Part shown: positions 23,212-62,000 of the stretch, in pieces | How positions within the stretch are numbered: the stretch's first letter is position 1 | Layout: each line of letters starts with the position of its first letter | Source: Closterium sp. NIES-65 | Lineage: Eukaryota; Streptophyta; Zygnematophyceae; Desmidiales; Closteriaceae | DNA: 64,000 nucleotides | Reading direction: 5' to 3' | NCBI GenBank assembly: GCA_948144175.1 | Contig: CANXME010002074.1 | Location: 62,001 to 126,000, forward strand | Made by a program: the position numbers and the translations under genes | Notes under the pieces: generated by a model | The model's database searches: none | What the model was told of the DNA's origin: nothing | What the model saw: the letters and a program-made list of their open reading frames with translations, nothing else

Positions 23212-26200
23212 ATGTCCGCTACCTGCTCCCGCCTCGCGCGGCTACTCTCCCGCTCCGCATTCGCGATTCCTCGAAGCGCGCCCTGCAGTCACCATGGTCC
23301 GGTCAGCGATTTCACCGCATCTCGGTCCTCGTCGACTTTTTTCAACCACTCAAGGATTACCGCGCGCGCAGCACCCCATTTCGCGGAACCTTCACGCCTG
23401 GGAGCGTGGAACCCCCTGGTGGAGCGTTCTCTCGGACCTATAAGCGCGCCGAGTCTCGCCTCCGCGAATCCGCGCAGGGGGTCGTCGGGCGTGGCGGTAG
23501 CGCGCGCCAGCTCCGCGGACGAGAATGCAGCGCGGGAGCAGGCGGAGAATGAGGCGGGGGTCGCGGAGAAGAGAGTGCGGCTCGGATTCATAGGTGAGCA
23601 GCATGAACGTGCTCTGTACATTATATGGCCGGCCATTTTCAAGTGCGTACTTGAATAGCGCTCCTAGGCTAAGTTGCATGCACCTGAAAATGGCCATTAT
23701 ATGGACGAACAGCTTGTGAAAAACCTAATTTAGTCAGGTTGTACACTGCACAGTATAGGTGAGCAGCATGAACGTGCTCTGTGGATTTAATAAAATTGAA
23801 GTCGATGCAATTTATCAACTGCTTTGAAGCTTCTCTCATCTCCATTCACTTCTTCCATTCCCCCTTCCCCTCCCTCCTCTCCGTCCTCTCAACTTGTGTG
23901 TGCCTCAGGCCTTCCTTTTTTTCCCCTTGCCCCCCCTGCGTCAAATCCTCCTCTGTGTTCCCCCTCCCCCGCCCCTTCCCGCCCACATCCCACCCCCCTT
24001 CCCCAACCACCACCCCCCCCCCCCTCACCCCCATCCCACGCCAGGGGCGGGGCAGATGGCGGAAGCGCTGGCGCGGGGGCTGAGCGCGGCATTTAGATGG
24101 GTCACAAGCCCTCCCCTCCCCCTCCCCCCCCTCCCCTTCCCCTTCCCCCTCCCCCTTTCTCCCTCCTCCTACTCCAGGGGCGGGGCAGATGGCAGAGGCG
24201 CTGGCGCGGGGGCTGAGCGCAGCAGGCGTGGTGGACTATGCTGACATGGCAGCTGTTGACGTCAACAGTGACAGGCTGGCGGTATTCCAAGGCATAGGCA
24301 TCGACACCAAGGAGAACGCCAGAGAGGTGGGGGAGGGGGACGGGGGGGGGGAGGAGGGAGACGGGAGGGGAATGGGAGCTAGGGGAAGGGGAATGGGGAT
24401 AAGGGATAGAGGGGGGGAGTTCCAAGGCATAGGCATCGACACCAAGGGGAACGCCAGGGAGGTGGGGGAGGGGACGGGAGGGAGGGGAGGGAGGGGAGGG
24501 AGGGGAGGGAGGGGAGGGAGGGGAGGGAGGGGAGGGAGGGGAGGGAGGTAGGTGGTAGGAGCAGGGGAAGTAGGGGGGTTTTCAAGGCATTGGGCCTTGA
24601 CTGCATAGCACTGAAGCTGCATCGTGCTCCAACCCCTTTGATCTTTGAGTCGACTCAAAAGTCACCTCATTGGGCCTTGACTGCATAGCAGTGAAGTTGC
24701 ATCGTGCTCCAACCCCTTTGACCACCGCTCGCTCCTCAATCACCCCATCCCCCATCCAACCCCATTCGCTCCACCCCCACACCCACCTTCACCCCGCCCC
24801 GCCACACCCACCTTCACCCCTCACCACCGCTTCACCTCCCCCACCACCAGGTGGCGGCCAGCAGTGACGTCATCTTCATTGCAGTCAAGCCGTTCGCCGT
24901 GCAGCCTGTGCTCGCTGACCGTTCACCCCTTTCACTACAGGTGAAAGTGAAAGTGAAACGGTCAGCGAGCACGGGCTGACGGTCAGGTGGGGAAGTGAAA
25001 CGGTCAAGCCCTTTCACTTCCCCACCTGACGGATCTCATTCCCTTGGGACTTCCCTCCCTCGCCCGCACACCCACCTTCACCCCTCAACAACCCTTCAAC
25101 TCCCCCACCACCAGGTGGCGGCCAGCAGTGACGTCATCTTCATTGCAGTCAAGCCGTTCGCCGTGCAGCCTGTGCTCGCTGACCTGGCGGCGTCGGGCGC
25201 GCTGACGGAGCGCCACCTCATCGTTTCGATCGCTGCGGGCGTGCCACTTGGCAAGATGCAGCAGTGGGCGGGGGAGGGCGTGCGGATCGTGCGAGTCATG
25301 CCCAACACACCTTGTCTTGTCGGTGCCACTGCTGCTGGTGAGAGGGAGGAGTAGGGCACAAGTAATCCGCACGCTATATTCATGTGACTCTTGAGAATTT
25401 GAGAATTCTCAAAAGTCACTCGAATGAGAGGGATGAATGAGTAGGGCATAAGTAACCTGCAGTACGTTCCATGCTACCAGTATGCGGTCGTCGGTGCAAG
25501 TGTCATCCAACAGCACATCAGTTTAAAACTCGTCCAGTTTTGAGACGCCTCAGCAGTTCCAGGCATCACGTCGTACGGCTACCTTTTGAGACGTCTCAAA
25601 ACACGTCGTACGGCTACCCGCACGCTGCTTCACGCCCTCCATTGCTGCAAGCGTGCCATTCCACCCTACTCCCCAAGCGTGCCATTCCACCCTACTCCCC
25701 CTACTTCCCCCATCCAGCCATGAGTCTGGGGAAGCGTTCAATAGATGAGGACAGGGCGTTGGTGAAAGCCATGTTTGTCGAGGCGCCTTCGAAACCACCT
25801 CCTCTCTCCCCCCGTAATCTTCCCATCCCCCCCTATTCCCTCCTATTCCCTCCTATTCCCTCCTTTTACCCCCATCCAGCCATGAGTCTGGGCAATAGCG
25901 CAACAGAGCAGGATGGGGAGCTGGTGAGGGCCATGTTTGTTGAGGCACCTCCTCTCTCCCCCCTTATTCCCCTGTATTTCCCACCATCCAGCCATGAGTC
26001 TGGGCAAGAGCGCAACAGAGCAGGATGGCGCGTTGGTGAGGGCCATGTTTGGCGCCGTGGGGGAGGTGTACGAGGTGGAGGAGCGTCTGCTCGACGCTGT
26101 TACTGGGCTCAGGTGAGTCCAACAAAAGCTCAGGTGATTCCAACAGAGGCTCAGGTAATTCAACAGAGCACAGGTAATTCCTGAGCTCAGGTGATTTCCA

Positions 26201-59000: not shown

Positions 59001-62000
59001 TCTTAAAAAAAAAAAACATTTTAAACTGCTCCCCCCTCCCCCTCCTCTCTCCCTTCCCCCCTTCCTTCGCTGACCTGCTCCACGGAGACGAAGTCTGACG
59101 AGGAGGGCCGTGGCGGGGTGGGCGGAGCAGTGGCTTCGTTATTGGCACGCTGCATGCTCACATCCCTCAGCTCCTTTAGGAGCACCGTCACCTGAGAGGG
59201 GTGGATGGAAACAAGAGAAATACAAGGAGGCAAGAGGGAGAAAGAGGTGGTAAAGAAAACAGCAAGAAACAACATAGGCAGGCAAGCAAGACCGATTGAG
59301 TTTACTCCAAATACTCCAATTCGATTGTGGTGTTAAGGTTCCTCCTACGGGCAACAAATGGAGCTCTGCTTCTAGGTTGAGGAGGACATATTCACGGAAA
59401 AGACCCTGACCCACCCACCACCCCATCCTCCACACCCACTGCACCTGGCTCTGCAGGTCTGCCACATCGGTGGACAGCAGGCTCACGTCCCTCTCCTCTT
59501 TTGAGGCCCCTCAAAACTCGACCCACCCACCCACCCACCCGCCACTCCCCACCCATTGCCCACTGCACTGCACCGCACCTGGCTCTGCAGGTCTGCCACA
59601 TCGATGGACAGCAGGCTCACATCCCTCTCCCTGCACGACTTTTGAGGCGCATCTAAACTCGACCCACCCAAACCCCGCTCCCCGCTCCCCATCCCCCACA
59701 CCCACTGCACCTGGCTCTGCAGGTCTGCCACATCGGTGGACAGCAGGCTCACGTCCCTCTCCCTTGCACGCAGCTCCGCCTGATAATGAGACACGATGGA
59801 TTAAACCGGGCGGCGGGGAGGGGGGGGTGACGTTGGGGCATGAGGTTAAACGTCCCAAAGCATACGCTGCAAGGGAAAGGAACATTGAGAACCGAGGCTG
59901 TAGAGTGGACGTCACCTGCAAACATGCAATCATGCACGCTCTGAGACCTGAAACCACTTTTGAGGAGCCTCAAAAGTTGTCTCATGTCTCGCGGTTTTTG
60001 AGGCGCCTCAAAAGTCGTCTCATGTCTCGCGATTTTTGAGGCGCCTCAAAAGTCGTCTCATGTCTCGCGGTTTTTGAGGCGCCTCGAGAACCATGGCTGT
60101 AGAGTGGACGTCACCTGCAAACATGCAATCACGCACGCTCTGAGAACTGAAACCGTCGCAACTGTTTAACTGTTAGCTGATCCGCTGCTTGAAGCCTGCT
60201 TGTCCTGCATGGTGTCATATGCACGGGCCATACACACGTGCTGCTGCTGCTACACTCCACTCCACTCCACAGTGACAGAGACCAACTCTCGCTGCATTCG
60301 GCAAAAGATGCCTCCTCTGCAGCAGCCTGCTGATCCGCAGGCAGTGCCAGCTTGTCCTGCATGACGTCGTATGCACGTGCCATGCATTCTAACCCCACCA
60401 ACCTTCTCCACAATCCCTGTTACTTGACTCAAGCACCGCACCGCACCGCAGGCAACTGCTCACCCTGCACTCCGCTAAAGATGCCTCCACAGCAGCCTAC
60501 TGGTGCGCCGCCAGAGCCAGCTTGTCCTGCATTAAAGTCGTACGCGCCCCAGTTCCCTTCCCTTTCACCTGAGTCAGGAAAAGTTGCTCACCCTGCACTC
60601 AGCCAACGATGCTTCCACAGCAGCCTGCTGATCCGCAGCCAGCGCCAGCTTGTCCTGCATGACGTCGTATGCACGGGCCATGCGTGCATGCTGCTCTCGC
60701 TCCTCCAGCACCATTCCTGCCTTCTGCTCTATCTCCCTCAACACCTGGTGCGCCGGGGGGGGGGGGGGGGAGGGGGGGTTGGGGTAAGGGGAGAGTGGGT
60801 GGGAGGGTGGGTTGTCACACCAAGAACGGGCTGCTCTCGCTCCTCCAGCACCACTCCCCCCTTCTGCTCGATCCCCCTCAACACCTGGTGCGTTTTGTGG
60901 GGAGATGTGGTGTGGGGTGGTAAGGGAGGAGAGTGGGTGGGTGGGAGGGTGGGTTGTCCTTCATGGCATCACACATGGGGCCATGCTGCTCACGCTCCTC
61001 CAGCACCACCCCTGCCTTCTGCTCTATCTCCCTCAACACCTGGTGCGTGCACGTGTGCATGTGTGTGCATGGAAGAGATTGTGCGTAAGAGGGTGGATTG
61101 CAGAATCACCCCAAGGTATGCAGGATACACAAGCCAGCCGACCGGCCGGCCACAGGTTGCAGGCGACTCAAACCAATGGGAGGGGGTACCACCTTAATCA
61201 ATATATCACTCCTCTTCCCACAAATACTCTTCATCTCTCACCCTGTTGAGCAGGGTCTCTGCTTGTCGCCGCTGCTGCCTCTCGTGGCGCCATGCATCTG
61301 CTGCCTCCTCATACTTCTCATACATCGTTGCCATCTGCACGCGGACGGACGGGCAGGCACGAAAAGACAATGAGGCCCTTTTTTTATATTTTTTTTAGAG
61401 ACATATCGAGTCAGCTTGAGAGAATATTTTTTCCTGGTACTCTCGGACACTGTTGCCAGCTGGACTGGACACGTGCATACATGCACGGAGGGAAACATCA
61501 CACAGGGGCAGAATGAGAGAGAACACACTGATGAGACCGAGGGCGGGCGGAGGAAGGCGAGCATGGAGGTGCAAGGCAGCGCGGGGCTGGCCACAGCGAC
61601 AAGAAAACACATGCACAAAAAGCACAAGAGTCTCAGAAGTGCAGCACAAGAGTCTCAGAAGTGCAGCACAAGAGTCTCAGAAGTGCAGCACAAGAGTCTC
61701 AGAAGTGCAGCACAAGAGTCTCAGAAGTGCAGCACAAGAGTCTCAGAAGTGCAGCACAAGAGTCTCAGAAGTGCAGCACAAGAGTCTCAGAAGTGCAGCA
61801 CAAGAGTCTCAGAAGTGCAGCACAAGAGTCTCAGAAGTGCAGCACAAGAGTCTCAGAAGTGCAGCACAAGAGTCTCAGAAGTGCAGCACAAGAGTCTCAG
61901 AAGTGCAGCACAAGAGTCTCAGAAGTGCAGCACAAGAGTCTCAGAAGTGCAGCACAAGAGTCTCAGAAGTGCAGCACAAGAGTCTCAGAAGTGCAGCACA

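Follow-up and report, generated by a model that had tools for sequence, protein, structure and literature searches.

A short loop-free palindrome flanked by duplicated targets in nuclear DNA of a Closterium alga

Selfish short palindromes are already known from algal organelles, as are insert-bearing duplications from break repair and the widespread miniature inverted-repeat transposable elements (MITEs). The subject here is a palindrome family with the 18-bp core TTTTGAG-NNNN-CTCAAAA, found in a 64,000-nucleotide stretch of DNA from Closterium sp. NIES-65 (G000:C1776:62001-126000, hereafter the window). Among its closest described counterparts are the organelle palindromes of Volvox carteri, which, according to the accessible part of the report (PMC2670323), are likewise short, dispersed in the introns and spacers of a green alga in both orientations, and proposed to be selfish. 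They measure 11-77 nt with an average of about 50 nt, are AT-rich, usually carry a loop of 3-5 nt and are mainly organellar, the nuclear copies appearing inert; in that part of the text the terms "target site" and "direct repeat" occur 0 times. The LIMP palindromes of Lobosphaera mitochondria, as presented in the available sections of PMC4524435, are similarly a lineage-specific algal palindrome family, but consist of repeated pentanucleotides around a 7-nt loop and number 19 mitochondrial copies. Compared with the Volvox elements, the Closterium palindrome is loop-free, its intact 18-bp cores are perfect palindromes, its exact copies in the assembly run to tens of thousands, and its targets are duplicated.

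Two further systems are related through break repair. Tandem duplications from opposite nicks or staggered breaks were reportedly treated by Schiml (2016) and by Vaughn and Bennetzen (2014). In the excerpted text of PMC5730883, opposite nicks with 5' or 3' overhangs produce tandem duplications in plant and animal cells, and the duplication lies between the nicks and, as at the Closterium sites, is direct, variable in length and sometimes accompanied by an insert. The insert described there belongs to no fixed family, whereas in Closterium one palindrome family would be the patch. The symmetric sister stwintrons and introner-like elements of Hypoxylaceae, in the portion of PMC8469720 available, are also highly symmetric and thought to spread as break-repair filler, for which a double strand made of two self-complementary intron RNA molecules has been proposed; they are introns in exons (93 nt in one example), present in dozens of copies, and that portion records no target duplication.

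A literature search, with subscription journals mostly outside its coverage, showed no report of the Closterium family among the titles and abstracts listed. MITEs and fold-back elements resemble it in having inverted repeats, high copy number and target duplication, but have a fixed short target duplication and conserved ends, whereas the Closterium palindrome has a long variable target and a conserved centre. REP elements are small dispersed palindromes as well, but they are bacterial stem-loops with a guide tetranucleotide, moved by RAYT proteins. The extended pattern GACTTTTGAGNNNNCTCAAAAGTC has 0 exact matches in prokaryote genome contigs and viral contigs, where the 18-bp pattern itself was not scanned. 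What seems to be new is the combination of a loop-free 18-bp core, lost ends and target duplications of 17-115 bp, which no tested known family fits fully.

The window contains 14 exact copies of TTTTGAG-NNNN-CTCAAAA, against 0 in 100 shuffles, and 33 copies with up to two mismatches, against a shuffled mean of 0.17 and a maximum of 2. When the arm was scrambled at random 200 times, every scramble gave 0 copies save one that had recreated the arm itself. The 33 copies extend from 24643 (first start) to 60089 (last end), and none lies at 1-24,600, which includes the retroelement part of the window. An earlier note, made from the letters of the window, had counted about 35 copies confined to the genic half; both points agree with these figures, although several of its coordinates are shifted by 1-2 bases. 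Two of its copies call for reservations. The copy at 48856 lies within a TPR coding exon whose relatives have SESSQK or SEASQK at that place, and is for that reason treated as a coding coincidence; the one at 50373, with degraded arms (TTAAGGCGCCTTAA), is only a possible family member. In the whole assembly (874 Mb in 2,400 contigs) the exact pattern occurs 30,327 times, 5,047 of them centred on ACGT, and the reversed control pattern 4 times, which is far above chance and corresponds to about one copy per 29 kb with array members counted.

Two other identities for the core were considered. A larger element ending in these arms was rejected, as isolated arms are not enriched in the window: outside palindromes TTTTGAG occurs 2 times and CTCAAAA 3 times, and permuted 7-mers average 4.7 over both strands. 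Arms spaced 5-35 apart number 3,267 versus 172, and among the first matches listed many are neighbouring palindromes. Telomerase-type addition was rejected too, the core being neither tandem TTTAGGG nor TTTTAGGG (plant motifs from the accessible part of PMC7046594, which may not be those of this alga).

The key fact absent from the earlier note is a direct duplication of the target on both sides of the palindrome. It is seen most clearly against a second copy of the locus on contig C2069, either the other haplotype or a large duplicate, which is 91-100% identical across a pyrroline-5-carboxylate reductase (P5CR) gene. All 8 palindromes of window 24500-28400 recur there, and one extra palindrome is found on C2069 only. 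At this extra site (window 26208) the window reads CAACAGAGG-CTCAGGTGGGTGTGCCTGCA-ACCCTGC, with a single target and no palindrome, while on C2069 (L065:1709, C2069:1416066) TATTTAGG-AATCACTTTTGAGAATTCTCAAAAGTGATT stands between two identical copies of the 20-bp target. The 38-bp insert contains a perfect 30-bp palindrome, and the flanks are identical at 297/300 and 200/200 positions; 8 surplus bases on one side resemble an arm continuation seen imperfectly in L027. It is almost certain that the palindrome inserts with duplication of its target. In the cleaner cases the inserted piece is 15-54 bp long, around a core TTTTGAG-XYY'X'-CTCAAAA in which XY is TC, GC, AC or AA.

Two further comparisons are weaker. 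In the C2069 counterpart of the large gene at 48400-60200 (fetched by position), an ACGT palindrome at L066:4304 lies between repeats of 53-61 bp (93%), and the window at 52769 has a single target copy, to which each C2069 target copy fits over 44-45 bases with 8-9 mismatches; the contigs have diverged here (654/895 aligned bases identical over window 51900-52830), which weakens the pair. The same piece of C2069 holds further palindromes without a window counterpart (L066:3571, 3702, 3724). The insertion at 53012 is translated through in one protein model of the gene, P0030 of Closterium sp. Naga37s-1, and is not seen in P0029 (also Naga37s-1) or P0031 (NIES-53), where splicing could hide it. 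Palindromic junctions can form in sequencing libraries, so an assembly or library artefact deserves mention; given the read-through in P0030, the varied ages of the copies and the recurrence of 8/8 palindromes on a second contig, it has next to no probability. Both contigs also share two arrays (29525 and 31849) and the palindromes at 33616, 33730, 58878, 59499 and 59958.

It is conceivable that the palindrome came first, as a fragile site that later duplicated its neighbourhood. Palindrome-bearing units do form arrays, three of them in the window, and the unit at 55071 is single in the window and triple on C2069. However, the clean cases have a single palindrome between two targets and none outside, and the empty allele at 26208 lacks both the palindrome and the second target, unless both were lost by exact deletion. 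A fragile-site origin is thus very improbable, and it fits the arrays as a later step only. These are ordered target-palindrome-target-palindrome-target, and target-palindrome-target units can expand later into tandem arrays via unequal exchange or slippage.

The frequency of target duplication was assessed in regions picked around listed motif copies, the exceptions being the window-flanking L023 and L024; motif density in this sample is therefore not genome density. The overlapping L001-L004 were removed from the samples, and the second copies L065-L068 from the centre tally and arm-completeness count below; solitary sets drop copies with a neighbour at less than 200 bp (direct-repeat control test) or less than 120 bp (decay and target-length analyses). 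Direct repeats within 70 bp flank 61/83 groups in 264 kb of four contigs (C6, C9, C10 and C1776), a looser setting under which a small number of alignments are arrayed or longer, reaching 165 bp (78%) where no array is involved. Repeats are also present at 15 of another 20 loci, which had been selected for their ACGT copies; at 3 of the 15 they surround a TCGA or GCGC palindrome of the same stretch. Solitary copies have both repeats within 8 bp in 17/58 cases, against 215/3,350 control positions in the same DNA (Fisher p = 1.3e-7), and within 30 bp in 35/58 against 381/3,350. Target length ranges from 20 to 115 bp in 37 cleaner cases, or from 17 to 115 bp with the 17-bp case in the window. These cases show no strong insertion-site motif, only a weak preference for T at -3 (41%).

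The centre is not free. Among 122 groups in 297 kb of sampled DNA (arms at least 12/14), four self-complementary centres account for 96: TCGA 40, ACGT 26, GCGC 17 and AATT 13, the ACGT count being raised by the 20 loci that had been selected for having it. A further 23 groups are one base from one of the four and 3 differ by two or more changes; the other 12 self-complementary words have 0 occurrences among these groups. Each of the non-self-complementary centres of the window (GCCC, GAGC, ACTT and ATTT) differs by a single base from one of these four and has the look of a decayed form. The earlier note was right that the arms are constant; its free centre, filled in anew each time, is not supported.

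The constancy of the arms might suggest functional binding sites under selection, with a free centre between symmetric half-sites. In 56 copies that have target repeats, 40 changes are seen over the 14 arm positions versus 32.2 expected, and 11 in the centre versus 9.2, the expectation being half of the divergence of the two target repeats from each other. Since copies with more than three arm changes could not enter, the count for the arms is more likely too low than too high. The constant arms and symmetric core are what such sites would have, but arm changes that do not fall below the age expectation, and a centre that is not free, leave binding sites with only a slim chance of being the explanation; protein-bound copies, also proposed in the earlier note, find no support in these rates. 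Core decay is about that of the target repeats; what keeps the arms constant is therefore the uniformity of the source from which new copies come, and not protein protection of each copy. The palindrome and the duplication appear to originate together; the simplest reading of these data would be a single event, after which copies are unprotected.

Outward from the core the copies are less uniform. Both 7-base arms (CTCAAAA) are complete at 103 sites with one of the four centres, and one arm at 90 more; with arrays collapsed the latter become 48, the other arm having 1-2 changes in 40 and more in 8, so that a few copies may have been cut inside the core. The reversed arm beside the four centres has 0 occurrences in the sampled DNA. 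The earlier note had observed that the best copies extend outward, which is correct, GTCACC being the majority outer arm of the TCGA type. These outer arms are type-specific: GTCACCTCG for TCGA, ATCGCCTCA for GCGC and variants of ACACCCTTCTTTCACGTGG for ACGT, whose longest form is about 58 bp with CACGTG at its outer ends. In a single copy they end at different points on the left and right (rank correlation -0.07, n=14), the two sides being trimmed independently of each other; the 18-bp core itself almost always survives. Symmetry of at least 8 bp beyond the core is found in 11/172 copies (6.4%, array members not collapsed), and in 0.4% of 4,582 control arm pairs from different loci with the same centre; among ACGT outer arms the sequence varies and the symmetry stays. 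Since this outer symmetry is particular to a copy, both arms varying together, it seems that a new copy is already a palindrome when it is made, and in placing palindromy at the heart of the element the earlier note was sound.

A natural comparison is a micro-MITE or fold-back element, in which a transposase binds the palindrome and moves it by cut-and-paste, loose staggered cuts giving a variable target length. The dispersed family with its subtypes, the long ACGT form and the target duplication at cleaner insertions are consistent with this, and a binding site would be kept as well as the core is. Known cut-and-paste families have a fixed target duplication of 2-10 bp and need intact ends, however, whereas the targets here span 17-115 bp (17 bp at 25567-25618, 20-115 bp in the 37 cases) and it is the ends that are lost, with variable stops around a kept centre. 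This origin is accordingly unlikely, in keeping with the view of the earlier note that the family is neither a microsatellite nor an ordinary MITE. A second possibility is retroposition, with a short self-complementary RNA reverse transcribed at a nicked target in the manner of long or short interspersed elements (LINEs and SINEs). The variable target length is like theirs, target-primed insertion tolerates truncation, and the filled site on C2069 has extra arm on one side. But truncation proceeds from both sides towards the centre and not from one end, the nick motif is not strong, and LINE target duplications are usually shorter than most of those seen here; retroposition seems a decidedly doubtful account.

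The account that is on balance probable, taken as a whole, is that of a centre-anchored micro-palindrome serving as a patch at staggered breaks; for its joining step, in which the patch anneals, the case is evenly poised. Two nicks would be made on opposite strands of the target, tens of bases apart, and filling in of the 5' overhangs would duplicate the target. Each filled 3' end would then copy one arm of a ready-made palindromic template, through the centre; another member of the family could serve as this template, or else RNA or DNA copied from such a member. Self-complementarity of the template would make the two new tails mutually complementary, and they could anneal across the centre and be sealed. 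Each repair would leave a fresh palindrome, its outer arm ends set by where copying started on each side and its centre kept. The element would in effect be a selfish patch for staggered breaks. Somewhat more tentatively, it may be regarded as a selfish element reduced to the minimum, lacking both genes and fixed ends and conserved in its centre alone: the 18-bp core would multiply since any two break ends that copy it gain the ability to pair, with break repair as the transposition machinery and palindromy as the replication principle. The junctions are mixed in this respect: of 44 arm/target boundaries in 22 cleaner copies, 28 have the arm directly against the target or sharing bases with it, over 0-5 bases (13, 8, 4, 2 and 1 junctions at 0, 1, 2, 3 and 5), and the mean overlap is 0.96, versus 0.33 by chance on our own arithmetic of one-in-four base matching.

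Several observations weigh against the patch model. The microhomology excess is modest and depends on consensus arms that we defined, and 16/44 junctions carry unexplained extra bases. Under the criteria used, 22/83 groups and 5/20 ACGT-fetched loci have no target repeat; some of these copies are old, yet L010:7012 and L054 have exact cores. Control positions themselves show direct repeats at 6-11%, because local duplications of other kinds abound in this genome. The 8 copies of the youngest bin, with repeats at least 97% identical, show 3 arm changes versus 0.3 expected, and some copies were therefore born imperfect. As a rule both 7-base arms are complete, and this points to a core that is recognised as such, perhaps by a protein, rather than to pure microhomology. 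Finally, local duplications without the motif make up 25/38 strict cases, and the idea that any palindrome can act as filler was rejected, 0/25 of the non-motif inserts having a palindrome of at least 10 bp, with 1.15 expected from random stretches. Self-complementarity alone is thus insufficient and the core sequence matters, for which the annealing model gives no reason. Together, the disuse of other palindromes as filler and the complete arms strain the annealing step; a core-recognising protein, or a dedicated template source, would explain both, and this is the main rival family of mechanisms.

If the patch model is right, the palindrome would be about the smallest unit known to us that inserts at new sites, 18 bp being sufficient. 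It would also join three questions: how short palindromes spread in algae, where long target duplications and their filler originate, and how introns and coding repeats grow, here in a close algal relative of land plants. The read-through at 53012 adds extra amino acids to the nuclear pore protein model of a related strain. With the genome-wide copy number and the empty/filled pair, the mechanism is directly testable.

Table 1. Palindrome copies, targets and arrays in the window (window coordinates)
Position	Feature	Details
24588..24721	Target and insert	Target 24588-24641, insert 24642-24667 (TCTTTGAGTCGACTCAAAAGTCACCT, TCGA), target 24668-24721; 54-bp repeat, 96%
25397..25414	AATT palindrome	Within 53-bp insert; flanking direct repeats 33 bp, 88%
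25538..25555	Decayed copy, centre ACGC	12/14 arm bases; clear target repeat not found
25567..25618	Target and exact insert	Target 25567-25583, 18-bp TTTTGAGACGTCTCAAAA at 25584-25601, target 25602-25618
26208..26227	Empty target CTCAGGTGGGTGTGCCTGCA	Single copy; C2069 counterpart has 38-bp palindromic insert and doubled target
26350..26403	AATT palindrome	Half palindromes come next, in an 11-bp array
27302..27319	TCGA palindrome	Perfect symmetry over 26 bp; flanking repeats 38 bp, 79%
27685..27702	TCGA palindrome	In 92-bp insert; flanking 50-bp, 88% repeats of P5CR exon
27794..27971	Target and GCGC insert	Target 27794-27864, insert 27865-27900, target 27901-27971; 71 bp, 94%
29441..30022	Array of 105-bp units, each a target with a palindrome	TCGA palindromes, 5 in all (four TTATGAGTCGACTCAAAA, one TTAGGAG), between target copies
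31820..32142	Array, 49-bp unit	6 TCGA palindromes alternating with 7 target copies
33616..33747	Two copies	Decayed ACGT 33616-33633; GCGC 33730-33747; clear target repeat not found
36994..37011	Decayed TCGA copy	Matching flank of just 11 bp
48612..48706	Target and exact insert	38-bp perfect repeats around 18-bp TTTTGAGACTTCTCAAAA (48651-48668)
52003..52020	Decayed AATT copy	Target repeat not found
52766..52822	Probable second empty target	C2069 (L066:4304) has ACGT palindrome between 53-61 bp repeats, 93%
52932..53141	Target and insert	Targets 52932-53012 and 53061-53141 (98%, 81 bp); decayed palindrome 53012-53029, centre ATTT
55047..55126	AATT palindrome 55071-55088	18-bp targets 55047-55064 and 55109-55126
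58850..58924	GCGC palindrome 58878-58895	Target repeats 27 bp, 89%
59409..59771	Two palindromes	59499-59516 (GCCC) and 59640-59657 (GCGC), parting three copies of TPR exon segment
59887..60154	Array of four palindromes	59958-60089, 38-bp unit, GAGC then GCGC; target repeats 69 bp, 94%

Some of the sites in Table 1 deserve comment. The 17-bp repeat at 25567-25618 is perfect and gapless at both sides of its insert, and at 48612-48706 one junction base can be assigned to target or insert alike. By our reading of the frame, the palindromes of the P5CR gene lie inside existing introns, the insert at 24642-24667 among them, a point relevant to any comparison with introners, which are themselves spliced as new introns. 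The 105-bp and 49-bp arrays have no equivalent in either bestrophin paralog of the window. Between aligned bestrophin blocks, the 105-bp array sits in a stretch of 603 bp, versus 107 and 82 bp in the paralogs, and the 49-bp array in one of about 1,000-1,070 bp, versus 110 and 140 bp, with 626 bp of this longer stretch being an unrelated 15-bp array; the paralog introns are too diverged to reveal the single-copy target of either array. Relatives of the 38-bp GCGC palindrome array (59946-60085) occur in tandem arrays on C354, C836, C376, C1714, C1737 and C1855, among 38 scored of 938 candidates.

That the window belongs to the nuclear DNA of a Closterium alga is indicated by its integrase-like frame and its TPR gene. 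For the integrase-like frame, in the retroelement part, 28 matches are listed, of which 27 are Closterium proteins and one is unnamed. On the minus strand lies a large coiled-coil gene of the TPR/nuclear-pore-anchor kind (Pfam TPR_MLP1_2), whose product is 88-91% identical over aligned parts to proteins of Closterium sp. Naga37s-1 and NIES-53. In the Naga37s-1 model P0029 one segment is tandemly repeated, and P0030 and P0031 are single-copy there. The P5CR gene was assigned by our reading of the frame, with a Pfam F420_oxidored domain. A bestrophin domain is carried by three tandem frames, corresponding to three bestrophin-like genes in tandem on the minus strand at 28825-42365, the unaligned stretches of which differ greatly in length. 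Rfam and tRNA scans of the window gave no matches. The second locus copy, G000:C2069:1414358-1452500, is collinear with the locus in the pieces fetched, most aligned blocks being 91-100% identical and one 0.9-kb piece 73%.

Local duplication of other kinds is also evident. The P5CR introns (23900-28500) contain numerous partial copies of adjoining exons, local duplication of exon pieces being common. At 24798-25184 a 123-bp exon duplication (96%) flanks a 142-bp insert that begins with an inverted copy of the duplicated exon end, which may be compared with snap-back repair synthesis. An inverted repeat at 54113-54430, with arms of 138 nt that are 90% complementary and spaced by 42 nt, resembles a larger MITE-like or fold-back insertion, and the TPR gene has more hairpin-like inverted repeats at 49153-49274 and 55842-55930, without relation to the TTTTGAG core. 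Near-perfect tandem arrays are present at 32193-32818 (15 bp x 42), 61621-62130 (22 bp x 23) and 63805-63961 (4 bp x 39).

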